IMG/VR virus record: IMGVR_UViG_3300036851_000391
Coordinates: 1-41,425 of that record
Source: a virus
Length of the DNA stretch: 41,425 nucleotides
Reading direction: 5' to 3' (one strand)
The position numbers were made by a program, and so were the translations under genes. Of the stretch, positions 10,289-41,425 are shown piece by piece (positions within the stretch are counted from its first letter, which is position 1; the number at the start of each line of letters is the position of its first letter). The notes under the pieces were generated by a model. The model searched no databases, was not told the DNA's origin, and saw only the letters and a program-made list of their open reading frames with translations.

Positions 10289-11160
10289 GTGAATCCGTAC
10301 TCGCATCGCTTGATGCGCCAGCCGCTGAGATTGAGAGTAGTCCAGCACCGGAGGCTGAACAGCCGGCAGCCGAAGCTCAGCCCGAGGCGGCTGCGCCGGC
10401 GGCGGAAAGCGGGGCAAAGCCCGACAAGGTTCAGACCGTTCCGCACGGCGCGCTACATGAAGCGCGGGAAAAAATTCGCACGCTTACCACGCAGATCGAT
10501 GAGCTGCGAAAGCAGCCGCAACTGTCGGAGGAGGATCGGGAGCTTCTAAAGGATCTGAAGGCGCAGCGCGCGGCGGCGAAAGAGCCGAAGCCCCCCGAAT
10601 TCCTCGAGGACCCGAAGGGCTACATCGACGCCAAGGAAAAGCAGGTTACCGAGGCGTTGAAGCAACTGCGCGAAGCCGACACCAAGCGTAGCGAGGTCGA
10701 GCAGCAGCAGGTGCAGCTGCAGTCGCTCCTGACGACGATCTCCACCCACGAACAGGCGTTCGTCGCGACGACCCCTGATTACAATGATGCTCTCCGGCAT
10801 GTGCGCACGGTGCGCACGCAGCAGCTGAAGATGATGTTCCCGGATGCGACGGACGCACAGATTCAGGCCCACATTGGACGTGAAGAACTCGGTGGGGCGC
10901 AGCAGATTCTCGCCCGCGGTGGAAATTCTGCGGAGTTCGCGTACAACTACGCGAAGACGCTGGGCTATCAGAAGAAGGCGCCCGCGCCGGCAGGAAATGG
11001 GATGGCAGCTGCGGTGATCGAGACCGAACCGAAGCCCGACAAGGACGCCGTGCGCACGCTCGGCGGTGGCGGCGGGGCAGAGCCCGATGATGCACCGGCC
11101 GATCCGATGCCTGAGTTCACCCAGGCGCTGAAGGAGCGCTTTTCGAGGAAGCGTAAGTGA
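10285..11160 (+). CDS. Scaffold-type capsid assembly protein
   Basis: 291 residues, acidic and largely helical. An Ala/Glu/Pro-rich N-terminus (EAEQPAAEAQPEAAAPAAES) is followed by coiled coil (LHEAREKIRTLTTQIDELRK ... AQRAAAKEPKPPEF) and a C-terminal basic end (ERFSRKRK). Composition and position between portal and capsid are typical of internal scaffolds, which bind the capsid protein with a basic C-terminus. Confidence 0.75.
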   Translation: MSESVLASLDAPAAEIESSPAPEAEQPAAEAQPEAAAPAAESGAKPDKVQTVPHGALHEAREKIRTLTTQIDELRKQPQLSEEDRELLKDLKAQRAAAKEPKPPEFLEDPKGYIDAKEKQVTEALKQLREADTKRSEVEQQQVQLQSLLTTISTHEQAFVATTPDYNDALRHVRTVRTQQLKMMFPDATDAQIQAHIGREELGGAQQILARGGNSAEFAYNYAKTLGYQKKAPAPAGNGMAAAVIETEPKPDKDAVRTLGGGGGAEPDDAPADPMPEFTQALKERFSRKRK

Positions 11161-11385: not shown

Positions 11386-12474
11386 GTGGCCAACACAGAC
11401 TACCCAGTCAATTCACCGCTGGCAGTAAAACGCTGGTCCAGCGATCTCATGAAGGAAGCGCTGAAGAAGACCTTCGCGCTGCAGTTCATGGGCACGAGTT
11501 CCGACTCGCTCATCCACATCAAGACCGAAGTGAACAAGGACGCTGGGGATCGCATCACCTTCGGCCTGCGTCAGCAGCTCTCCGGTGCGGGCATCTCGGG
11601 CGACAACACGCTCGAGGGGAACGAGGAAGCGCTCGTTACCTACACCCAGAACGTCACGATCGATCAGCTCCGTCATGCCGTGCGCTCCGCCGGCAAGATG
11701 AGCGAGCAGCGCGTGCCGTTCACGGTGCGCGACGAGGCGCGCGATGGCCTGGCGGACTGGTGGAGCGATCGCATCGACCGCTGGTTCTTCAACCAGGTCA
11801 CCGGTCACACGGCGCAGGCGGATACGCGCTACACCGGCATGCAGGCAGTCACGGCCCCGGATGCCGGACACATGGTGTTCGCCAACATCGGTCCTGCGAT
11901 CAGCTCCGGCATCGTGGCAGGGGCGGAATCCTCGCTCTCCGCGACCACAGTCGCCAGGTTCAACCTCAACATCATCGATCGCGCCGTGGAGCGTGCGAAG
12001 GTGGCGGTCAATGCGCTGCGACCGATCGAATCAGGCGGCAAGCGCATGTACGTCGCCTTCCTGCATCCGTATCAGGTCACCAGTCTCCGGACCAACACCA
12101 ATACCGGCCAGTGGCAGGACATCCAGCAGGCCGCGATGAGCGGCGGGCAGGTCGATGACAACCCGATTTTCACGGGTGCCCTTGGCATCTACAACAACGT
12201 GGTGCTGCACGAGAGCACACGAGTGCCGCTGGTAGTTGGTGCCACGGGCGGAACTCTGGATGTCGCTCGCGCGGTGCTATGCGGCGCGCAGGCGGCGTGC
12301 ATGGCCTTCGGTCGGGGCCATGGCAAGAACACTTTCAACTGGGTCGAGGAGCTGTTCGACTTCAAGAACCAGCTCGGCGTTGCTGCGGGCTGCGTGGGCG
12401 GGCTCGTGAAGACGCGCTTCAACGGATCGGACTTCGCCACGGTGACGATGTCCAGCTACGAGGTGGCAAGCTAA
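11386..12474 (+). CDS. Major capsid protein, N4-gp56 family
   Basis: 362 residues from a GTG at 11386 (first residues MANTDYPVNSPLAVKRWS). The N-terminal SSDLMKEALKKTFALQFMG, the central GLRQQLSGAGISGDNTLEGNEE, the helical RVPFTVRDEARDGLADWW and the C-terminal MAFGRGHGKNTFNWVEE fit the N4-gp56 (HK97-fold) capsid family. It has a 225-base leader with repeats and RNA structure, as expected for the most highly expressed phage gene. The next gene follows by TAATG overlap. Confidence 0.9.
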   Translation: MANTDYPVNSPLAVKRWSSDLMKEALKKTFALQFMGTSSDSLIHIKTEVNKDAGDRITFGLRQQLSGAGISGDNTLEGNEEALVTYTQNVTIDQLRHAVRSAGKMSEQRVPFTVRDEARDGLADWWSDRIDRWFFNQVTGHTAQADTRYTGMQAVTAPDAGHMVFANIGPAISSGIVAGAESSLSATTVARFNLNIIDRAVERAKVAVNALRPIESGGKRMYVAFLHPYQVTSLRTNTNTGQWQDIQQAAMSGGQVDDNPIFTGALGIYNNVVLHESTRVPLVVGATGGTLDVARAVLCGAQAACMAFGRGHGKNTFNWVEELFDFKNQLGVAAGCVGGLVKTRFNGSDFATVTMSSYEVAS

Positions 12475-12926
12475 TGGCTACTCTCACTCTGAGCAACGTG
12501 GGCGAGCCCGAAGCGGTCCATGTCGGCGTCAACGCCAAGATTTGCCGCGTGTCGCTGTCCGTCACGGTCAGCGCCGGTGACATTCACATCATCGGCCGTA
12601 TTCCGCACGGCGCGATCCCGCTGGATGCCATTTTCTACATGGGCGCGGCGGTCGGCGGCATCAGCACGGGCCCATCGTTCAAATTCGGCACCAGCGCATC
12701 GCAGGAACTGTTCTTCGCCTCAGCGAGCTATTCGGTGGCCTCTTCGGCACTGAATCGGTGTACGCGACTGCTCGGCACGGCTCGACAGATTTCCCTGTCT
12801 GACGATGCCATGCCGCGCTACGAGAACATCGTGATGGTCTCGAATGCGGGCGGCGCCGGCGTCGGTTCGGTCGGTCACCAGGGCGATCTCGTGGTCTTCT
12901 ACAAGATGCCCGGGCAGTCGTTCTGA
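12474..12926 (+). CDS. Capsid-associated protein (decoration or head protein)
   Basis: 150 residues from ATG 12474 directly on the capsid stop. It is beta-rich with many Gly, Ser, Ala and Val residues (VSLSVTVSAGDIHIIGRIPH...FKFGTSASQELFF). Position immediately after the capsid gene and composition suggest a head decoration or cement protein. No catalytic motif. Sequence family not firmly recognised. Confidence 0.65.
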   Translation: MATLTLSNVGEPEAVHVGVNAKICRVSLSVTVSAGDIHIIGRIPHGAIPLDAIFYMGAAVGGISTGPSFKFGTSASQELFFASASYSVASSALNRCTRLLGTARQISLSDDAMPRYENIVMVSNAGGAGVGSVGHQGDLVVFYKMPGQSF

Positions 12927-13165
12927 TGGCAGTCAAGGCGCTTTTCGCCGTTTCCAACATCACCGCATCGGGTGGCGATTTGCGGGCTTATTGCAAGGGC
13001 CACATCGTGGGCGGGTCGGCATTTGATGGCGATTTCATCGTCAATCCGGAGTCACCCAATCTGAACTCAGAGCTTGCCGAAGCCGTAAAGGCGTATCTCA
13101 TCTCGGCGCATAGCGTGAGCTTCGTTGCCGGCGACGTGGTGAGGATGTTGCCAGCGCTGCTTTGA
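12926..13165 (+). CDS. Small head protein, hypothetical
   Basis: 79 residues, beginning MAVKALFAVSNITASGGDL, coupled to the upstream gene by TGATG. Mixed alpha/beta, no motif. It lies between capsid genes and the glycan cassette. Likely a minor virion or assembly protein. Confidence 0.55.
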   Translation: MAVKALFAVSNITASGGDLRAYCKGHIVGGSAFDGDFIVNPESPNLNSELAEAVKAYLISAHSVSFVAGDVVRMLPALL

Positions 13166-13193: not shown

Positions 13194-14636
13194 ATGCATA
13201 CACTGGGATTGGCAGGGATTATCGCGGCCCTGCCAGGAACGATCAGCGAGGGGCGTCTCGGGGAAGCGGAGACGCTTCTCTGGCCCGCCCTTGATCAGAA
13301 GCCGGAAACCGGAGCGCTCTGGTTCTACGCCGGCATTCTCTCGTCCATGCAGGGCAAGCAGGCGCTTGCGTTCGAGTGTTTCCGGAAGTCGCACGAGCTT
13401 GAGCCGCACCCGGCGAACTGGGCGAACATGGGCGGCGTCTTGCGTCAGATGGGCCGGATCGAAGAGTCACGCGATGTCATGCTCCGCGGGCTCGATCACA
13501 TCGGCGAGGACCCGGACATTCTCGCCAATCTCGGCGGCTCCTATGTGAACGAGGGCGACCCACAGCCAGGGATTGCCCTCGTGGAGCGTGCGCTGAAAGC
13601 CAAGCCGGATCACGGCGGTGCGAAGTTCAATCTGGCGCTGTTGCATCTCGAGGCCGGGCATTTCGCTCAAGGGTTTGACCTCTACGCGGAGGGCGCGCAC
13701 CGCCATCGCCTGACGAAGACCTATGAGCCGGATCCTCCGGAGCTGACACCACAATTGCACGAGGTGCTACGCGGGCAGGGCACGCGCCTCATCGTGTGGG
13801 GCGAGCAGGGGATCGGCGATGAGCTCATGTTCGCGACGATCCTGCGCGATGCGAAACGCGACTATGAAGTGATTTTCGACTGTCACCCTCGGCTCGAAAG
13901 GCTGTTCGAGCAGGCCGCATGGATGAAGGCGCCAGGGTATCCGGTGACGCTGTACGCCACGCGCAAGACCAAAGGCGATCGGGGGTGGAGTGAGCAGGCG
14001 GATGTGAAGTGTGCGATCGGCAACCTCGGACGCCTCTATCGCCGCACGCCGGCATCCTTTGCGTGGACCGGCAAGGTGTATTCGGCGCCTCCGAAGGAGG
14101 TGCGTGAGATGCGCGCATTCCTCGAACACATCGCCGCCGGACGCAAGATCGTGGGCCTCGCGATGCGCGGCGGGACGATGTCCACCGCGCGCACGTACCG
14201 GATGCTCGCCCCGGAAGCGATCATGGAGGTGCTGAGCGATCCGCGTTACCTCTTCGTCTCGCTCGACTACGAGGACATGACACCACTCGGGGAGTGGTTC
14301 ACGCAGAAGTGCGGTTCGGGGCGCTTTCTCTGGTACCCGAGTGTCTGCTGGGCGTGGGATTACGCGCATCAGGCCGCGCTCGTTGCGGCAACCGATGCCG
14401 TGGTGACGGTCTGCCAGAGCATCGCTCACCTCTCCGCAGCGATGGCGCATCCAACGTACGTGATGACGCCGTCCAGGCCGGCGTGGCGCTATGGCGTGAA
14501 CGAATCCGACCGCTGGTACTGGTACGACCACGGACAAGCGCGCCTGCTGCGTCAGAAGGGGGATGACTGGGGCCCGGCCGCCACAGCTCTCTCGGAGGCG
14601 CTGCGGGCGCGTTTCTTTTCGCAGGAGGCTGCGTAA
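13194..14636 (+). CDS. TPR protein fused to a GT-B-type glycosyltransferase domain
   Basis: 480 residues with GGAGGGGAAG before the ATG. The N-terminal 170 residues are tetratricopeptide repeats (ETGALWFYAGILSSMQGKQ; HPANWANMGGVLRQMGR; DPDILANLGGSYVNEGD; HGGAKFNLALLHLEAG). The rest is a GT9-like domain: LIVWGEQGIGDELMFATIL, an IVGLAMRGG strand, and near the end VVTVCQSIAHLSAAMAHPTY with RPAWRYG, a nucleotide-sugar-binding signature also seen in TPR-linked glycosyltransferases. It is the first gene of a four-gene glycan cassette between capsid and tail genes, so it probably adds sugar to a virion protein or cell-surface glycan in the cytoplasm. Confidence 0.75.
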   Translation: MHTLGLAGIIAALPGTISEGRLGEAETLLWPALDQKPETGALWFYAGILSSMQGKQALAFECFRKSHELEPHPANWANMGGVLRQMGRIEESRDVMLRGLDHIGEDPDILANLGGSYVNEGDPQPGIALVERALKAKPDHGGAKFNLALLHLEAGHFAQGFDLYAEGAHRHRLTKTYEPDPPELTPQLHEVLRGQGTRLIVWGEQGIGDELMFATILRDAKRDYEVIFDCHPRLERLFEQAAWMKAPGYPVTLYATRKTKGDRGWSEQADVKCAIGNLGRLYRRTPASFAWTGKVYSAPPKEVREMRAFLEHIAAGRKIVGLAMRGGTMSTARTYRMLAPEAIMEVLSDPRYLFVSLDYEDMTPLGEWFTQKCGSGRFLWYPSVCWAWDYAHQAALVAATDAVVTVCQSIAHLSAAMAHPTYVMTPSRPAWRYGVNESDRWYWYDHGQARLLRQKGDDWGPAATALSEALRARFFSQEAA

Positions 14637-15193
14637 TGGGTCACGCATTTCAGTCTCCGCTGCGACGCTGGGATGTGCTCGCGGGGCTCTGCCAGCAGAT
14701 GGGAGCGAAGACGTTCGTGGAGGTCGGCTGCAAGGAAGGCCGTACGACCGGAGCGCTGCTCGCGAACTGTCCGGAGCTTCGTGTCGTCGCCGTCGATCCC
14801 TGGGCGCCGGTGCCGAATTCGGACGAGAACTACGACGGCTGGGACTTCGTGGCTATTGAACGCGAGTTCTGGGAGAACGTCGGCCCGCATAAGGATCGCG
14901 TTGAGATGTTGCGCACTACGTCACTTGAGGCATCGTGCATCCCAACCACCCCGTTTGATGTCGCATTCATCGATGCCGGCCACGACTACGCGAACGCGCG
15001 AGCCGATATCCAGGCGTGGTGGCCCCTGGTGCGCGAGGGCGGCTATCTCTGCGGTCACGATTACCAACACAAGTTCCCCGGTGTAATGCGCGCCGTCGTC
15101 GCCTCATTCCCGCTGCTGCGGGTCGCGGTATGCCCGGACTCGGTGTGGGTCGTGCAGAAAGAGCACGATGTGAAGCTGAAGGAGGCGGCGTGA
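14636..15193 (+). CDS. SAM-dependent class I methyltransferase (Methyltransf_24-like)
   Basis: 185 residues, TAATG-coupled. Motif I is FVEVGCKEGRTTGALL, then VVAVDPW (acidic loop), and FDVAFIDAGHDYANARADI with the metal- or substrate-binding Asp/His typical of family-24 sugar or small-molecule O-methyltransferases. GGYLCGHDYQHKFPGV is a strand-6 feature. Embedded between glycosyltransferase genes, it most likely O-methylates a sugar added by them. It is not a DNA methyltransferase: no DPPY or NPPF motif. Confidence 0.75.
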   Translation: MGHAFQSPLRRWDVLAGLCQQMGAKTFVEVGCKEGRTTGALLANCPELRVVAVDPWAPVPNSDENYDGWDFVAIEREFWENVGPHKDRVEMLRTTSLEASCIPTTPFDVAFIDAGHDYANARADIQAWWPLVREGGYLCGHDYQHKFPGVMRAVVASFPLLRVAVCPDSVWVVQKEHDVKLKEAA

Positions 15194-15849
15194 TCGTCGC
15201 GTACTGGACCCGAGGCGAAGAATTCGGACGCCTCGCGCGTCTGTCCGCAGAATCCGTGAAGCGCATCTATCCGAAGGCGGACTTCCGCTTCATCGAGGAT
15301 GACGGGGCGCGCCCGAAGATGGTCGCGAATCTTGATGCCCAGATCCATGTCCTCGGCTGGGCGATGCGCGGCGAACAGATTCTCTTTCTCGATGCCGACG
15401 TGCTCCTGTGCAAACCGTTTCCGTTCGACCTCTATCACGATCTCTATGTGACGTGGCGCGATCACGTCAATGGCGATAAGGATGCCGCGAAGATGCAGCC
15501 GTACAACTACGGTGTCATTGCCTGCAATGTTCGGCCGCAAGTGATCGAAGCCTTCATCTGGCTACGCGCCCGAATTCTCGGCATGGCGAAGAAGCATCAG
15601 GACTGGTACGGGAACCAGCTCGCACTCGCAGACCTCCTCGGCCAGCCAACGCAGGAGACGCTCGAGACGCGCATCCGCTGGTCGCTGACCGACCCCGGTA
15701 CACTCCTGCGCGCGCAGTGCCTGTCGTGCGATACCTGGAACTGGTCGCCGGATGGCGAGAGCGAAGACATCTCCGCGAAGGGTGTCATTCACCTGAAGGG
15801 CGGCCGTAAGGACCTCATGGACCACTACGCGCAGAGGCTTGCGGCATGA
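15190..15849 (+). CDS. Glycosyltransferase, GT8-like (first)
   Basis: 219 residues from a GTG at 15190 that overlaps the methyltransferase stop as GTGA. The GT-A fold begins VIVAYWTRGEEFGRLARL. ILFLDADVLL carries the metal-binding DxD. Later NYGVIACNV and GVIHLKGGRKD supply the His-containing C-terminal metal ligand region. It transfers a sugar from a nucleotide donor; the acceptor is unknown. The next gene has the same fold but little obvious identity, so the pair may build a disaccharide. Confidence 0.7.
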   Translation: MIVAYWTRGEEFGRLARLSAESVKRIYPKADFRFIEDDGARPKMVANLDAQIHVLGWAMRGEQILFLDADVLLCKPFPFDLYHDLYVTWRDHVNGDKDAAKMQPYNYGVIACNVRPQVIEAFIWLRARILGMAKKHQDWYGNQLALADLLGQPTQETLETRIRWSLTDPGTLLRAQCLSCDTWNWSPDGESEDISAKGVIHLKGGRKDLMDHYAQRLAA

Positions 15850-16610
15850 GGGTTTACATCGGCTATGATGCGCACGAGCCGGATGCCTACGGGCTTGCCG
15901 AGGCGAGTCTCCGCGGCCGGGCGAGCGCACCAGTGGATGTGACGCGGCTTGATCTCACGCGACTCGCCGAATGCGGCCTCCTGCGCCGGCCACGCGATAC
16001 ACGCGGTGGACGTTACGACATCCTCTCGAATGCGCCGGCCTCGACGGATTTCGCGATCTCCCGGTTCCTCGTGCCGATTCTGGCCCAGTCCGGCTGGGCG
16101 CTCTTCACCGATAGCGACGTGCTGTTTCTTGCGGATATCGCTGAGCTGCAGGGTCTTGCAGACCCGCGCTATGCGCTCATGTGCGTGCAGCACGACTACG
16201 CCCCGAAGTTCGGCCCGAAAATGGACGGCCAGATCCAGACGCGATATCCGCGCAAGAACTGGTCGAGCGTCATGCTCTTCAACTGCGATCACCCCGCGAA
16301 CAGACGCCTGTCGCTCATCGACGTGCAGGAGCGGCGCGGCTTCGACCTGCACCAGTTCTACTGGCTGAACGATACGGAGATCGGTGCATTGCCGGCGCAG
16401 TGGAACTGGCTCGTCGGTGAGCAGCCACGGCCAGCCGATCCGAAGATTGCCCATTTCACGCTCGGCGGCCCGTTCACGCACGGCTGGCGCGGGGGTGAGC
16501 ACGATTCACTCTGGTACGAGGAGCAGCAGCGATGGCTAAGAAGCCCTCTCACAAAACAGGACCCCGCTTCCGTTCCTTCGAGCACGAGCTCGCCCGCCGT
16601 GGCAGCGTAG
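15846..16610 (+). CDS. Glycosyltransferase, GT8-like (second)
   Basis: 254 residues, ATGA-coupled to the first transferase. It begins MRVYIGYDAHEPDAYGLAE, the usual GT8-type start. SGWALFTDSDVLFLADI holds the DxD metal motif, NWSSVMLFNCDHP and FYWLNDTEIGALPAQWNW follow as in lipooligosaccharide-type transferases, and IAHFTLGGPFTHGW provides the C-terminal His. The last 26 residues are low-complexity and overlap the next small gene, so the functional end is near residue 230. Confidence 0.75.
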   Translation: MRVYIGYDAHEPDAYGLAEASLRGRASAPVDVTRLDLTRLAECGLLRRPRDTRGGRYDILSNAPASTDFAISRFLVPILAQSGWALFTDSDVLFLADIAELQGLADPRYALMCVQHDYAPKFGPKMDGQIQTRYPRKNWSSVMLFNCDHPANRRLSLIDVQERRGFDLHQFYWLNDTEIGALPAQWNWLVGEQPRPADPKIAHFTLGGPFTHGWRGGEHDSLWYEEQQRWLRSPLTKQDPASVPSSTSSPAVAA

Positions 16611-16766: not shown

Positions 16767-17393
16767 ATGCCCACCCTCGGAGCCGCCATCACCGCCATTC
16801 GTGGAGACCTCAACCGCTCCACCGATTTCGACGCGCGCATTCAGGAAGCGATCGTCAACGCGATCCGCTTCTACCGCGCGCGGCGCTACGGCTTCAACGT
16901 CAAGCGATCGACGATAGAGCTGGCAGGCGAGTACACCTCGCTCTCCACGGATTTCATCGAGATCGACTACGCGAAGCTCGAGGTCGGCGCGACGCTGAAG
17001 CCGCTCGTAGAGCGCACGTACACGTGGCTCAACGACACGGCGCAGGATGCGAGCCTCTCCTCGGAGCCCATCTGGTTCGCGGTTCAGGAGCGGCAGTTGC
17101 GGGTTTATCCGCCGCCGGATGACAGCTACTCGACGCAGATCCACTATCTGTACGACCTGACCGGGATATCGCTCTCGACGAGCGACACGACGACCAGTAA
17201 CGCGTGGCTCGATGAGGGGTATGAGGTGATCCGCCTCCACGCGATGGCCGAGGTGCTTGAGATGCATATCGGCGGCCCGGAAGCATTCGAAACAGCCGCT
17301 CGCCTGCGCACACGCGAGGACCAGGCGGAGAAAGAACTGAAACGGCGAGCGAACCGCGAGCAGTCAAGCGGTCAGGTCAAAGGGGTAATGTGA
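16767..17393 (+). CDS. Head-tail adaptor, P22 gp4-like
   Basis: 208 residues. The N-terminal helices (MPTLGAAITAIRGDLNR ... RIQEAIVNAIRFYRARR) and central strand pairs (QERQLRVYPPPDDSYSTQIHYLYDL) match the tail-accessory gp4-like connector that docks beneath the portal in P22-type podoviruses. It is the first tail gene after the glycan cassette. The C-terminus is a charged helix. Confidence 0.75.
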   Translation: MPTLGAAITAIRGDLNRSTDFDARIQEAIVNAIRFYRARRYGFNVKRSTIELAGEYTSLSTDFIEIDYAKLEVGATLKPLVERTYTWLNDTAQDASLSSEPIWFAVQERQLRVYPPPDDSYSTQIHYLYDLTGISLSTSDTTTSNAWLDEGYEVIRLHAMAEVLEMHIGGPEAFETAARLRTREDQAEKELKRRANREQSSGQVKGVM

Positions 17394-28332: not shown

Positions 28333-28526
28333 GGTCCGCGCCTCGCCTTGACCTTCATCTGAAATAGCTCCCACAACTGGGGACGCATCTTCGCCGTCCC
28401 CAGTTCCCAGTCCTGCCATGTGCGGTACGCGACTCCGATCAATTCGCCGGCTTCTTTTCGGGAAAGCCCAGCCGAGAGACGTTTCCGTTTGATCTCGGCC
28501 GGGGTTGGATTACCCGATGAAGGCAT
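28329..28526 (-). CDS. XRE-type helix-turn-helix regulator behind the Ro gene
   Basis: 65 residues from ATG 28526 (73 if the ATG at 28550 is used, which has AGGG upstream). RKRLSAGLSRKEAGELIGVAYRTWQDWELG is a typical Cro/XRE helix-turn-helix. It overlaps the end of the Ro gene and lies in the same transcript. It could autoregulate the operon through the palindrome in its promoter (30559-30577); this is a hypothesis from co-location. Confidence 0.65.
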   Translation of the reverse strand: MPSSGNPTPAEIKRKRLSAGLSRKEAGELIGVAYRTWQDWELGTAKMRPQLWELFQMKVKARRGP

Positions 28527-30153
28527 TGATGGCTTGCGGGAGCGACGCATCCATCCCTACGAAATTCATGCAACCCGCATCCTTCGGGTCGACCACACTT
28601 GACTCCGTCGCCGTGAAGGCGATGAACCCCAGCTTTAGCGGCCCGATCTCGCGCCGGTACGCCTGCAGCTCTGCTGCAGCATGCGTCGGCCCGGCCCACG
28701 TTTCGTTGTCCGTGTAGACAAGCACAGCGTCAGCCTGGACCTTATTCGCGCGCGCCCAGCGAATGGGGAGCGCGCAATCAGTCCCGCCGAAGTTCATACC
28801 ACGCGTCTTCGCGAGTACGTCATTCAGCGAGTCACGCTTCGTGATGCCAAGGTCGCGGAAGTCCGTCGCGAACCCGAAGGCCCAATACTGCGGCTCGGTT
28901 CGTACCGTGATGAGCGCCATCGCCGCAGCAGCCTCCGCCACGGTGATCGGCGACTCGTTCACGGTCATTCCCATGCTGCCCGAGACATCGATGCCGAGGA
29001 TGAAACGCTTGCCAGTCGGTGCCACGTTATGGAACGACAGATCGAACGCGTAGTCCAGCGCACCTGTTACCTGCGGAACCACCGTCCACGAACCAGATCC
29101 ACGGAAGCCTGATCCCTTCGCGTACGTGCGCGAGGCAAGCAGGACATGCCACGGATGCACGCGCGCCTTACGGATTGCTTCACCATCGGCCAGCTTCTCC
29201 TGCACGAACTTCGCCGCCTGAGAGAACGGCGTTAGCAAGCTACACTTCGACAGATTGCCGAGGTTACGGATCAGCGCCGTGTAGCCGAGGGACGGCAGGA
29301 GCGCTTCCCACACTTCCGCGCTCGACAACAGTTCGGTCGGCACGAACTCACGTTGCAGGCGAGTCTCCGCGATGATCTTCGCCGCCGTCTTTGGGTCCTT
29401 CTCATCACGCACGCGCAACCAGCCGTCCACGAACGGTGCCAGCGTGCGTACACCCTCCCATCCCGTGGCCACCGTCTGGCGTTCGGTCAGTGCCTTGCGC
29501 GCCTTCTGAGCGCGACGTTCCGCGCCGACTTCTGGCTCGCAGATCGCATCAAAGACCCGCTTGGTTGCGGCGTCCTGCGTGACAGGGTGCGTCAGGCGCA
29601 GCACGTCCCGATGGGAAACACCGTTGCGCTGCTGATACTTGATCGCCTGAAACGCGATGTCCTGCGCCGGACGGTCCATGTACCACTTCGAAATCGCCGT
29701 ACGGATACCACGGCCCCAGCCTCCGCCAAGTGCCTGCCGGTACTCCACGAAGGTGAAGAGGTGCGTGCCGATGCGGCACACAGCCGGCAGAGCCGCGAAA
29801 GCCGATTTGCGGGTCGCCTGATCGCCACGCACGGAGGCAAGTGCAAGCGCGAAGATGGCCGGTTCATTCTTCGGCGCCAGTCCCTTGTCGGAAATTTCAG
29901 CCGTCTCGCGCACGACTCGAGCGCCGTCCTGCTTGATGCAGTTCAGCACGACGTCAGCGTTTTCAATCGTGAGTTTCTTTTCGCTCGCGTAGTAGGTGCC
30001 GCCCTGGCTCCCGAGAATCAGGAAGCGCCGCAGACGAGACCAGTCGTCGAGTTCGAACACATAGCCGCCAGCCGCGTTCTGGATCATCGGTTGACCCGGC
30101 AACGGCTGCGACTGGGGAGTCTGGAGGGGAGAGAAGTGCTTCGCGTAGGTCAT
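28510..30153 (-). CDS. rsr: Ro60/Rsr-type RNA-binding protein (TROVE plus von Willebrand A domain)
   Basis: 547 residues with a perfect AAGGAGGT ribosome site. The N-terminal TROVE region (about 10-370) shows the Ro hallmarks: GGYVFELDDWSRLRRFLILG, GGTYYASEKKLTIENADVV, GIRTAISKWYMDRP and a HEAT-like helical ring. The C-terminal von Willebrand A domain has a complete MIDAS: DVSGS (Asp389, Ser391, Ser393), Thr458 in GGTD and Asp482 in YTDNE. Ro proteins form a ring that holds misfolded RNA ends and bind Y RNAs outside the ring; in bacteria they tether PNPase or assist RNA maturation. Length matches bacterial Rsr (about 530). It is the first protein gene after four Y-like RNAs, within one presumed transcript. 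No rtcA or rtcB is present. Confidence 0.95.
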   Translation of the reverse strand: MTYAKHFSPLQTPQSQPLPGQPMIQNAAGGYVFELDDWSRLRRFLILGSQGGTYYASEKKLTIENADVVLNCIKQDGARVVRETAEISDKGLAPKNEPAIFALALASVRGDQATRKSAFAALPAVCRIGTHLFTFVEYRQALGGGWGRGIRTAISKWYMDRPAQDIAFQAIKYQQRNGVSHRDVLRLTHPVTQDAATKRVFDAICEPEVGAERRAQKARKALTERQTVATGWEGVRTLAPFVDGWLRVRDEKDPKTAAKIIAETRLQREFVPTELLSSAEVWEALLPSLGYTALIRNLGNLSKCSLLTPFSQAAKFVQEKLADGEAIRKARVHPWHVLLASRTYAKGSGFRGSGSWTVVPQVTGALDYAFDLSFHNVAPTGKRFILGIDVSGSMGMTVNESPITVAEAAAAMALITVRTEPQYWAFGFATDFRDLGITKRDSLNDVLAKTRGMNFGGTDCALPIRWARANKVQADAVLVYTDNETWAGPTHAAAELQAYRREIGPLKLGFIAFTATESSVVDPKDAGCMNFVGMDASLPQAINAFIG

Positions 30154-30346: not shown

Positions 30347-30475
30347 GATGGACGTGGTATGCCAATCGGGGTTTACGCGCTCTAACCAGCTGAGCTACCG
30401 GACCTCACGGCCCGAGGGAGAATCGAACTCCCGACCTCGTCCTCCGAAGGGATAACCGATTAACTCCGGCCCATC
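30347..30475 (-). ncRNA. Y-like RNA 2 with a complete permuted tRNA mimic (YrlA type)
   Basis: Outer helix GATGGGC (30475-30469) with GTCCATC (30353-30347), CGGA loop, inner helix GTTAATCGG (30464-30456) with CCGATTGGC (30369-30361), then TTATC. The inside holds in order: a UUCG-capped arm (30452-30440); a T-arm GGGAG-TTCGATT-CTCCC (30432-30416); an acceptor helix TCGGGCC-GTGA-GGTCCGG (30415-30398) closed by a GNRA loop instead of free ends; TA; and a D-arm GCTC-AGCTGGTTA-GAGC (30395-30379). It is a tRNA cut open at the anticodon arm and closed at the acceptor, as described for bacterial YrlA RNAs. Confidence 0.85.
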
Positions 30476-30482
30476 AATCTGC

Positions 30483-32822: not shown

Positions 32823-33809
32823 TTACTTCATCGCGCCGGCCACGCGTTTCGCTGCCTCGGCCGCATTCGATGGTGCGAGGTGCGCATATCGTAAAACCAT
32901 TGCGTAGCTCTTCCACCCGCCGAGCACCATCAACTCTTGCAGTGTTACGCCGCGCTGGACGGCCCACGAGGCGCCCGTGTGTCTGAGGTCGTGCCAGCGT
33001 AGTCCCTCCAGTCCCGCCGCCTTGGCGGCCTTCCTGAAGGCCTTCGTGTTGAAGTTGTCGATCGGCCGACCGTCCCACTGGAACACGCGCTCGCCTTTGG
33101 GGCTGAGCTTCCGGCAGTCCTTCAGGATGCGGATGGACTTTGGCGTAAGCGGAAAGCTGAATGCCGGCCCGGATTTCATCTGTCCGCGCGGCACCCAAGC
33201 ATGGCGTGCTTTCAGATCCACGCGGTCCCACGTGAGCCCGGACTGCGAGCGCATCCGCAGGAGCGTCAGTACCGCGAATCGTGCGGCGAGCTCCAAGTGT
33301 TTCGGTAGGTGCTTGCACAGCCGCTCGAACTGCGGTGGCATGAGGTATCGGGGCTCGGGCTCTACCTCGCCGTACATCGGTATGTGCGGGACGGATTCCA
33401 GATACCGCCAGCGCTTGCAGGCTCGAAGGACCGCACGCACCGTGCGCATCATCCGGTCCACGGTGGAATGGCTCCAGCCCTCTGTCAGCCCGAGCTTGCG
33501 GAGCTCTTCGAGCGTATCCGGATCGGCGACGGCCGAGACCATCTCCTCGCCGATTTCCGGCTCCAGCCAGTCGAGAAATTCCCGATCCCGCTTGCGCTCG
33601 CGTCGAGAGTCGTTCAGCCATCGCTCGCACGCCTCGCGCCAGGAAATTGCACCACGATCTTCGAGCTGGTCCCGGCGCCAGAGTCGTTCCTCGAGGACGT
33701 GGCCGAACTCTTCGGCTTTTTCGCGGTCCGCTGTGCGCGACGAGCGGCGAGTCTTGCGGCCAATTGCGACCCACCAGAAGGGAGAGCCTTTCCGTCGATA
33801 GAGGCGCAT
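32823..33809 (-). CDS. int: Tyrosine-family phage integrase
   Basis: 328 residues. Catalytic residues: Arg in LTLLRMRSQSGLTW (about 185-187), Lys212 in MKSGPAF, His273-x2-Arg276 in WHDLRHTGASW, Trp299 in LGGWKSY and the nucleophile Tyr308 in MVLRYAHLAP. The N-terminal MRLYRRKGSPFWWVAIGRKT is the arm-binding region and residues 55-145 the SAM-like core-binding domain. It integrates the phage at tRNA-Val through attP at 32680-32725, about 100 bases beyond its 3' end. Its 5' 196 bases overlap the excisionase-like gene in another frame. Confidence 0.95.
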   Translation of the reverse strand: MRLYRRKGSPFWWVAIGRKTRRSSRTADREKAEEFGHVLEERLWRRDQLEDRGAISWREACERWLNDSRRERKRDREFLDWLEPEIGEEMVSAVADPDTLEELRKLGLTEGWSHSTVDRMMRTVRAVLRACKRWRYLESVPHIPMYGEVEPEPRYLMPPQFERLCKHLPKHLELAARFAVLTLLRMRSQSGLTWDRVDLKARHAWVPRGQMKSGPAFSFPLTPKSIRILKDCRKLSPKGERVFQWDGRPIDNFNTKAFRKAAKAAGLEGLRWHDLRHTGASWAVQRGVTLQELMVLGGWKSYAMVLRYAHLAPSNAAEAAKRVAGAMK

Positions 33810-37289: not shown

Positions 37290-37715
37290 TCACGTGTTCA
37301 CCGGAGCTTCGGACAGTGCCTCGCGTTTGAAGATCTTCGACTTCGGCAGCTCCGTCGGCAGACCAAGCAACCCCTGCGTCATCTGGTAGAGCTCCAACCG
37401 CGTCACGCCATGGCTCGCCAAAAATGCCTTGCTGCCGTCAGTCACCGAGGCGCCGTACCTTTCGCGGGCTTCTTCTTTGCTCGTGAGCGGATAGGGTACG
37501 ACGCCCCGGTGGTACCAGGGATGCAAGGGAATGCTGTAGCCGTGGCCGAGTCGTTTGCCGGGGTTGACGAGGTGGTCGATATCGACGGGCCCCTGTTTCG
37601 GGACAGGCAAGCCGCGGGCCATCCGGTCACGAGAGAGGATGCAGCCGAGTTTGCGCGCGGCGCGTTCTCGGTCGCGATCCGCTTTGGTCGGATAGGTGTA
37701 ATTGCGGTGCATCAT
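37290..37715 (-). CDS. Ref-like RecA-dependent HNH nuclease
   Basis: 141 residues. The C-terminal domain DIDHLVNPGKRLGHGYSIPL, HPWYHRGVVP and LASHGVTRLELYQMTQGLLG matches the nuclease domain of P1 Ref, an HNH enzyme that cuts DNA in RecA-formed D-loops. The basic N-terminus (YPTKADRDRERAARKLGCIL) is Ref-like but short. It sits beside the Bet-type recombinase, so it likely serves in phage recombination. Confidence 0.7.
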   Translation of the reverse strand: MMHRNYTYPTKADRDRERAARKLGCILSRDRMARGLPVPKQGPVDIDHLVNPGKRLGHGYSIPLHPWYHRGVVPYPLTSKEEARERYGASVTDGSKAFLASHGVTRLELYQMTQGLLGLPTELPKSKIFKREALSEAPVNT

Positions 37716-38200
37716 GCCGCTTCTGCCGCCCAGCGCTCGATGGACGCCAGCATCTCGTCGCGAGCCTCAGGGATTTCGATATCCGGGGCCACCTTCTCCA
37801 GCAGCACCTCGAGCACCTTGGGCCAGTACAGCGCCCACTCCTCCGGCGTCATCCGTTCGAAGTCGGTCGAGCGTGGGACCCGGATGGCGTAATCCGTCCC
37901 GCCGACCGGCAGCACATCAAAGAGGCCCGTGCACAACTTCATCGCCGTGTGGGCGTCCTCTTTACTGAAAATCCGCATGTAAACCGGATGGCCGTCAAAC
38001 CGATCGATCTCGATTCGCTTCACGTTCTTGGCCGTCGTGGTCATCAGGACCCAGTACCGATGATGAGCCGTCGGGTCGCGGACGCCGACCGGCCGGAAGG
38101 CCTTGCATTCGCCCTGCTCCAGTCGCTGGAGAAGCTTGGTGCTGTCCTCATCGGTCGGGACGAGCCCCTCACCACTGCGGGCGAACCAGACCTCTCTCAC
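37712..38200 (-). CDS. DUF1367/NinB-like recombination-region protein
   Basis: 162 residues. EQGECKAFRPVGVRDPTAHH followed by YWVLMTTT is similar to the core of DUF1367-type proteins (fragment KxFRPxRNxxxHRxYFxL) found in phage recombination regions. It lies between the Bet-like and Ref-like genes, ATGA-coupled to both. Biochemical function not known to me. Confidence 0.55.
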   Translation of the reverse strand: MREVWFARSGEGLVPTDEDSTKLLQRLEQGECKAFRPVGVRDPTAHHRYWVLMTTTAKNVKRIEIDRFDGHPVYMRIFSKEDAHTAMKLCTGLFDVLPVGGTDYAIRVPRSTDFERMTPEEWALYWPKVLEVLLEKVAPDIEIPEARDEMLASIERWAAEAA

Positions 38201-39102
38201 GGCCGCCCCTCCGGCCGCTTATGGACCTTCAGGTATTCCTTGAACTTGGCCTTCGTGATGATCCCGTCGGCCGCGAGCTTGTCGAGCACCGTGATGTAGA
38301 GTTCGTGGTACGGCATCAGCCTTGTGGCCTCGAACTCGCGAAGCATGTCCGCGATCTCGTGCTCTTCCTTGTCTGCGTTCAGGATGTCGGCGATCTCGGA
38401 GACGGCATTGTCGCGTACCTCCCAGTCGACGCCCGAGACATCACCGCGAGGATTTGCGCTGCCCTTCAGCGTTATGCTCGTTTCCTCGGTTTGGTCGTAA
38501 TGACCTTCCATTTCCTCAGCCGTGTGCTCGCCGCCCAGCTCGTCTGGGAACGCCTCACGCAGGCCAGCCGCCTCGGTGCACTTGGTCAGCATCTGCCGCG
38601 GCGCCTTCGTCCAGCGCTCGTTGACGGTGACCTCCTTCGTCTTGTAGTCCTTCTTCGTGGCGACACACTCGGTGAAGTAGACCATCACTGGGAACTCGGT
38701 ACGGCTCGCCGATGCAGCGTTCCAGCGGAAGACAGTCAGCGCGCACCACTCGGGCGCCTTCACGCCGAGGCATTCCACCTCGGGGCCGTACTCGGGCTTT
38801 GAGTGCCCCATGTACTGCCCCGTGCGCATCGCTGTCGTGCGGTACTCGTAGATGCCAGGCATGACGACGTCACGCCAGACGTAGTCGTCGCCAGATTTCA
38901 CTTTCATCGGCACGATGTGGCACGGCTTCTTGAGCGGGTCCAGCTTGCGCGCCTTGCAGTAGTCGAAGACCATCAGCACCGATTCCGGCTTCGCGCCGGG
39001 GAACAGGCTGTTCATGGCGGTGCGCCACGCGGCCTCATCAATCCCGCGGCGGGCGACCGGGGCCGGTAACTGTGGCTCTTTGTGTTCGACAACAGCGTTC
39101 AT
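38197..39102 (-). CDS. bet: Bet/RecT-family single-strand annealing recombinase
   Basis: 301 residues. Typical Bet features: WRTAMNSLFPGAKPESVLMV, DYCKARKLDPLKKPCHIVPM, YVWRDVVMPGIYEYRTTAMR and TEAAGLREAFPDELGGEHTA. The C-terminal third (helical, acidic) resembles the flexible tail that binds SSB. It anneals complementary strands and supports circularisation and replication-linked recombination. No lambda-Exo or RecE-type exonuclease is encoded nearby; the adjacent Ref-like nuclease or host enzymes may supply ends. Confidence 0.85.
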   Translation of the reverse strand: MNAVVEHKEPQLPAPVARRGIDEAAWRTAMNSLFPGAKPESVLMVFDYCKARKLDPLKKPCHIVPMKVKSGDDYVWRDVVMPGIYEYRTTAMRTGQYMGHSKPEYGPEVECLGVKAPEWCALTVFRWNAASASRTEFPVMVYFTECVATKKDYKTKEVTVNERWTKAPRQMLTKCTEAAGLREAFPDELGGEHTAEEMEGHYDQTEETSITLKGSANPRGDVSGVDWEVRDNAVSEIADILNADKEEHEIADMLREFEATRLMPYHELYITVLDKLAADGIITKAKFKEYLKVHKRPEGRP

Positions 39103-41286: not shown

Positions 41287-41425
41287 TTCGAAACCTCCTC
41301 ATCCGACAGCGCCTCGCTCGCGATTCGGATAGCTTCACGGAAGTCGAATAGGCGCTTGCCCGCGGCTTCCTCGACATGGCGCTCGCCGAGTTCGATGATC
41401 CGGAGCAATGCCTTCCTGTAACGGG
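41283..41425 (-). CDS. Small charged early protein, C-terminal part (continues from 66-1)
   Basis: Second piece of the 61-residue gene whose ATG is at 66. Positions 41403-41425 duplicate 1-23. This part encodes the C-terminus (HVEEAAGKRLFDFREAIRIA ... DEEVSK) and ends at TGA 41285-41283, overlapping the next ATG (41286). Confidence 0.75.
   Translation of the reverse strand, partial: RYRKALLRIIELGERHVEEAAGKRLFDFREAIRIASEALSDEEVSK

Follow-up and report, generated by a model that had tools for sequence, protein, structure and literature searches.

A capsid-linked gene cassette predicted to glycosylate virion proteins in a group of podoviruses

Introduction

What do sugar-transferring enzymes modify when a phage encodes them in the midst of its virion genes? 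The question is raised by a cassette of four genes at positions 13194 to 16610 of IMGVR_UViG_3300036851_000391, a virus record of 41,425 bases that was analysed at its full length and is called the window below. The first gene encodes a predicted glycosyltransferase with tetratricopeptide repeats (TPR), here termed the TPR-transferase, and it is followed by genes for a methyltransferase and two further putative glycosyltransferases, GTa and GTb. An earlier note on this DNA had proposed that the cassette is aimed at virion proteins. Glycosylation of virions has so far been demonstrated in very few phages; in mycobacteriophages, Che8 and Rita among them, glycans on capsid proteins have been linked to glycosyltransferases that the phages encode (Freeman et al. 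2023, cited in PMC11256854 and PMC10955285).

Comparison of viral contigs indicates that the cassette is no isolated case and is conserved as a trait of a podovirus lineage. We consider it likely, though well short of certain, that it forms a protein glycosylation module for the virion, in which a TPR-guided enzyme resembling bacterial FlmG glycosylates capsid subunits in the cytoplasm and its partners extend and methylate the sugar. No description of a capsid-linked module of this kind was found in literature searches that for the most part did not reach subscription papers.

The cassette within the virion operon

The 23 bases at either end of the record (positions 1-23 and 41403-41425) are identical, and the assembly is therefore probably complete and circularised. 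The virion genes form a podovirus block on the plus strand, made up of a portal (phrog_156), the major capsid protein, small structural proteins, an SU10-type adaptor, one more virion structural protein (phrog_3287) and a protein of the injection type. On the minus strand lie genes for recombination, for a Ro60-like protein and for an integrase. Within the plus-strand block, the major capsid protein gene (11386..12474; Phage_capsid_3, Pfam 4.3e-80; phrog_334, PHROG 1.5e-89) is followed by a gene for a small structural, probably decoration, protein that we call dec (12474..12926). The latter belongs to an aligned family found directly 5′ of the TPR-transferase gene in relatives, in which 7 of 25 members match the virion structural protein family phrog_8455. 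Next comes an open reading frame for a 79-amino-acid protein (12926..13165), which has a relative in two other loci (L030/L084) and whose place, by gene order only, resembles that of the annotated ‘structural protein’ gp14 of phage KLEP18-1.

Bordered by these small structural proteins on its 5′ side, the cassette runs on the same strand through the TPR-transferase (13194..14636, 480 amino acids), the methyltransferase (14636..15193), GTa (15190..15849) and GTb (15846..16610), and the head-tail adaptor gene (16767..17393; SU10_adaptor, Pfam 1.1e-14) forms its downstream border. This bears out the arrangement described earlier, of four coupled genes on one strand between the capsid and tail genes. 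Successive cassette genes overlap by 1-4 bases (TAATG, GTGA and ATGA junctions), the gap upstream of the first gene measures only 28 bases, and no promoter or terminator above chance was found between positions 11100 and 17500, either inside the cassette or at its borders. Co-transcription with the capsid gene is therefore very likely for the whole cassette. The GTa gene begins with the GTG at 15190, the start at 15016 given in the list of open reading frames being too early. Ratios of nonsynonymous to synonymous substitution against relatives are about 0.1-0.3, with synonymous sites near saturation, and thereby support coding and purifying selection; the four open reading frames are real genes. 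None of their products has a membrane segment.

Predicted enzymes

The TPR-transferase begins with a TPR array (TPR_2, Pfam 1.5e-10), and its C-terminal domain matches no Pfam family; a match to Pfam GT9 is absent at a threshold of 0.1. An AlphaFold2 model made from an alignment of 49 relatives reached a mean local confidence (pLDDT) of 93.1 and a predicted template modelling score (pTM) of 0.90. In structure comparisons the N-terminal half of this model matches TPR superhelices, and the C-terminal half is closest to GT9 heptosyltransferases, with Z scores of 17.9 for 1psw (257 residues, root-mean-square deviation 3.6), 17.6 for 3tov and about 16 for WaaC, and with a Z score of 16.2 for the protein heptosyltransferase TibC (4rap). 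A profile of the glycosyltransferase half alone also retrieves heptosyltransferase II (1psw) at 9e-4, and the EQGxGD motif of the phage protein aligns weakly with the GxxxGD start of that enzyme. Ten residues, namely E204, Q205, G206, G208, D209, G326, G327, R336, Y359 and W459, are invariant in 49/49 TPR-transferases, which diverge to as little as 25% identity. The catalytic base of TibC, Asp110, was located by superposition on WaaC and MurG (PMC4358343); by analogy with it, Asp209 would be the likely base of the phage enzyme.

The first gene is thus modelled as a TPR array and a GT-B domain of the heptosyltransferase type joined in one soluble protein, an architecture that invites comparison with several known systems. 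FlmG of Caulobacter crescentus is a TPR and GT-B flagellin O-glycosyltransferase (PMC7591256). The likeness to it lies in architecture: both have an N-terminal TPR array and a C-terminal GT-B domain, both are cytoplasmic, and the proposed target in the phage is likewise an abundant self-assembling subunit. However, the phage gene lies in a capsid operon with methyltransferase and GT8 partners, and FlmG depends on pseudaminic acid. With the protein heptosyltransferases of the TibC/BAHT group (PMC4358343) and the GT9 enzymes WaaF and WaaC, the TPR-transferase shares a conserved Asp early in the glycosyltransferase domain as well as a GT9-type GT-B fold (Z 16-18), but it differs from them by its missing Pfam GT9 match and by the TPR array that precedes this domain. 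SPINDLY and OGT, the top Foldseek matches, are TPR-guided protein glycosyltransferases with the same order of TPR and GT-B domains and with TPR sequence similarity; they nevertheless have far more TPRs, and over the single domain the phage glycosyltransferase half fits GT9 better. Asparagines 78, 112 and 146 of the TPR array, spaced by 34 residues and 82-94% conserved, recall the asparagine ladder of OGT, which we did not use as proof because asparagine is common at such TPR positions.

The second gene encodes an S-adenosylmethionine (SAM) methyltransferase of the Methyltransf_24 family (Pfam 5.8e-17; 62.9 bits against a cut-off of 26.3), and its relatives in the same cassette are 52-72% identical. 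It also matches phrog_2675, which is labelled ‘DNA methyltransferase’.

GTb, a member of phrog_28018, is predicted to be a GT8-like glycosyltransferase with a GT-A fold and a DxD motif. Its AlphaFold2 model (pLDDT 91.2) matches LgtC (1g9r, Z 16.8) and 3tzt (Z 16.6), as well as GlyE, WbbM and LARGE1, profile comparison retrieves WbbM (9e-4) and GlyE (0.005), and the motif D89xD91 is invariant in 62 sequences. The structural match to GT8 enzymes (LgtC, GlyE, glycogenin, LARGE) is near full length, although GTb is only 12-18% identical to these members. GTa is probably a GT-A glycosyltransferase as well, judging from a D68-x-D70 motif and an HxKG motif that are invariant in an alignment of seven sequences. 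Pfam, PHROG and NCBIfam yielded no match to it and the PDB none that was convincing, and its profile comparison with GTb is weak (probability 11%, with the DxD motifs aligned). A PDB profile match of GTa to 1u60 (0.004) was taken as chance. The enzyme classes assigned earlier therefore stand for the TPR-transferase, the methyltransferase and GTb, and in part for GTa, whose DxD motif is conserved but which matches no family or fold.

Conservation of the cassette among phages

Relatives were read from viral contigs with hidden Markov models built from the proteins of the window; a viral scan with the single TPR-transferase sequence gave no match, and an alignment was needed to find them. Through the TPR-transferase motif alone we recovered 79 viral loci, of which 60 extend more than 1.5 kb upstream. 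A capsid or dec gene lies within 1 kb upstream of the TPR-transferase in 48 of these 60, typically at a distance of 30-130 bp.

Complete intervals up to the adaptor gene numbered 68 after removal of duplicates, with the window and the loci found through the major capsid protein included. A methyltransferase of one of two types is present in 61 of them and GTb in 56. The commonest layout combines the TPR-transferase, an MT23-type methyltransferase and GTb (34 of 68), and that of the window, with Methyltransf_24, GTa and GTb behind the TPR-transferase, occurs 18 times. Some intervals also hold genes for radical SAM/SPASM proteins, for a sulfotransferase or for an enzyme resembling GDP-mannose dehydratase; related proteins of the radical SAM/SPASM type occupy the cassette slot in L095, L195, L204 and L242. 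The TPR-transferase of locus L002 forms one protein with a methyltransferase-like domain, whose relatives are encoded by genes of their own in L003 and L129. The methyltransferase is thus a regular part of the cassette, and the O-methylated sugar predicted earlier from it would be its putative product.

In a comparison of relatives with and without the cassette, as suggested in the earlier note, presence follows capsid relatedness. The cassette occurs in 5/5 relatives whose capsid proteins are at least 60% identical, in 9/13 at 50-59%, in 0/4 at 43-49% and in 0/26 below 40%. Empty slots exist in L087, L091 and L103, where the adaptor follows 381-528 bases behind the capsid gene, and the cassette is absent too from Rhizobium phage RHph_Y1_10, Paracoccus phage KLEP18-1 and Microcystis phage Mae-JY35. 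Distances between TPR-transferases correlate with capsid distances (0.66) as well as those of the adaptor do (0.64), whereas the value for GTb is 0.39. GTb relatives also occur in 77 other loci without a TPR-transferase in the DNA examined. From these correlations the TPR-transferase appears to be inherited with the capsid and GTb to be exchanged more freely.

Among 50,697 phage records searched with four query variants, the cassette was found in the metagenomic record MW202512 only; matches in RHph_X2_30 and MW202713 proved to be other architectures. A contig binned as Thiotrichaceae (L279) has the same order of portal, capsid, dec, TPR-transferase, methyltransferase, GTb and adaptor. This contig is a prophage or a co-binned phage and may point to a group of hosts. 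For those relatives whose source is stated, the origins are agricultural land, a karst lake and a spring, and the idea that the modification hides virions from antibodies found no support.

Candidate acceptors

The major capsid protein and dec are the acceptor candidates. The dec gene is fast evolving or swapped: among L196, L199, L200 and L209, whose capsid proteins are 92-99% identical, swapped dec proteins share 55-64% identity. Identity between L199 and L200 is 99% for the capsid protein, 61% for the swapped dec, 82% for the TPR half and 91% for the glycosyltransferase half, a pattern of faster TPR divergence that would suit dec as the acceptor. In L209, by contrast, dec was swapped with no matching change in the TPR half.

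Relatives in bacteria

A scan of bacterial genomes yielded 79 TPR-transferase loci. Type IV pilin genes lie in 16 of 78 and flagellin genes in 9 of 78, mostly within 500 bases of the TPR-transferase; four scanned pilins match Pfam Pilin, and the flagellins have typical ends. Because this set had been chosen by similarity, an order-wide sample around one Burkholderiales genome was drawn, in which 55 of 100 genomes gave a match, some of them weak. Of 20 loci inspected there, which were among the best-scoring, 8 contain a pilin gene and 3 a flagellin gene (11/20 together), whereas neither occurs in any of 20 stretches of 13 kb (0/20) taken arbitrarily from the genomes of the two samples drawn (Fisher p 1.5e-4). 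The neighbourhood is not universal, since a class sample around an Azospirillum genome has flagellin in only 2/20 loci. The MT23-type methyltransferase and GTb recur in the bacterial clusters.

Tandem arrays of TPR-glycosyltransferase genes, with up to 24-26 matches per genome, were also observed in bacteria (L248-L326, G006, G158). In Betaproteobacteria such arrays often include a methyltransferase gene and GTb and adjoin genes for type IV pilin; they are candidates for cytoplasmic pilin glycosylation.

Proposed function and alternatives

We propose that the TPR array of the 480-residue enzyme would dock on an abundant capsid protein, either the major capsid protein or dec, while it is still in the cytoplasm. 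The GT9-fold domain would then add a first sugar from a nucleotide-activated donor to Ser or Thr, with Asp209 as the base, GTa and/or GTb would extend it, and the methyltransferase would cap it, so that subunits are modified before or during capsid assembly. Inference extends to the acceptor, the donor and the linkage, to the order in which the enzymes act and to the biological benefit; the benefit probably concerns the surface chemistry of the particle, in adhesion to the host or surroundings or in protection. This reading is preferred because a TPR array is joined to a GT9/TibC-like fold with a conserved EQGxGD motif, because the genes sit close behind capsid or dec genes with no promoter of their own detected, because the TPR-transferase keeps stable partners and tracks the capsid as well as the adaptor does, and because bacterial homologues adjoin pilin and flagellin genes while the cassette proteins are free of membrane segments. 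The earlier claim that the cassette is aimed at virion proteins is thus the best reading of these genes and of their place in the virion operon; the late timing from which the earlier note argued, and a glycan on virions, are predictions.

Several points count against glycosylation of the virion. The system is known here from genes and predicted folds; neither a glycan nor a mass shift nor a site on an acceptor has been observed. GTa, which matches no known fold, falls about 20 residues short of six relatives in length. Adjacency of genes makes co-transcription likely and says nothing of the substrate, and the combined Ser and Thr content of capsid and dec proteins is nearly the same whether or not a phage has the cassette. 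Of two dec swaps, one goes along with divergence of the TPR half and the other does not. Finally, the homologues linked to pilin and flagellin genes presumably modify host fibres, and the phage enzyme could likewise act on a host protein.

This last point leads to the strongest rival, in which the cassette modifies type IV pilin or flagellin of the infected or lysogenic host, which might, for instance, keep out superinfecting phages that depend on pili or flagella. The bacterial homologues give it weight, as does a tyrosine integrase (32823-33809, minus strand; PF00589, 3.6e-22), through which the phage is probably temperate and effects on lysogens had to be weighed. The earlier note had missed this integrase, together with the pilin- and flagellin-adjacent homologues and the conservation across the lineage. 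Nevertheless, we regard modification of host fibres as unlikely: the genes lie inside the virion operon, where no promoter of their own was found, and in diverse phages the TPR-transferase keeps its place next to the capsid gene and diverges in step with it, a tight and inherited link that a fibre target would not need.

Glycosyltransferase genes of temperate phages often serve conversion of surface sugars. The integrase, and the wide occurrence of GTb relatives in phages without a TPR-transferase, would agree with lysogenic conversion of host lipopolysaccharide or capsule in the manner of O-antigen conversion genes. We judge this improbable, as the four proteins are devoid of membrane segments, nothing resembling a flippase gene was seen, the TPR domain suggests that the partner is a protein, and the genes belong to the virion block. 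Slightly less probable still is that the TPR-transferase serves as a virion or assembly protein that has either lost catalysis or has no need of it and that its neighbours are ordinary extra genes. TPR domains do act as scaffolds, and the gene stands among structural genes, but its catalytic-type residues are invariant across divergent sequences, and methyltransferase and GT8 partners are kept with it. Hypermodification of DNA, with the transferases glycosylating modified bases and the methyltransferase acting on DNA, is suggested by the label of phrog_2675 and is very improbable, given that the Pfam match is to Methyltransf_24 and to no DNA methylase, that no base-modifying enzymes were found among those early-strand open reading frames that were scanned, and that the TPR architecture and the capsid-linked place do not fit.

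If the cassette does glycosylate virions, it differs from known systems, as far as the open literature shows, in enzyme class, gene place and lineage-wide conservation. The mycobacteriophage glycans are demonstrated, in contrast to a cassette known from its genes. In the F1 phage Maravista the transferase genes are located towards the 3′ genome end, and no TPR-glycosyltransferase is described in the text covered. Virion glycosylation would become a predictable trait of a whole lineage, with a candidate priming enzyme and natural empty-slot relatives, and a soluble, modular route for placing sugars on icosahedral capsids is suggested.

A broader view, for and against which we see the balance as even, is that a three-part module of a TPR-guided GT-B enzyme, a SAM methyltransferase and a GT8-like enzyme glycosylates a self-assembling subunit encoded next to it, be it type IV pilin, flagellin or the capsid of this podovirus lineage, and that the phages keep the TPR-transferase with the capsid by descent and exchange the tailoring genes. 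In this way, a whole group of phages seems to have adopted a known bacterial means of sugar-coating surface fibres as a standard module for its capsids. The rule that the enzyme gene lies beside that of its polymer subunit is testable in bacteria too, and it suggests candidate pilin glycosyltransferases unlike the known membrane oligosaccharyltransferases.

Other features of the genome

The minus strand also encodes a Ro60/TROVE protein (28510-30153; Pfam PF05731, 4e-42; vWA_Ro60, 4e-48). About 250 bases upstream of its gene lies a tRNA-Arg-like gene (30407-30481, minus strand), and Rfam gave no match in the whole window, this gene included. Partners of bacterial Ro60 are tRNA-like Y RNAs; the tRNA-Arg-like gene could specify such a Y RNA or a tRNA used for integration. 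A recombination set on the same strand consists of a RecA-dependent nuclease-like protein (37290-37715), a NinB-like protein (37712-38200) and a RecT-like annealing protein (38197-39102).

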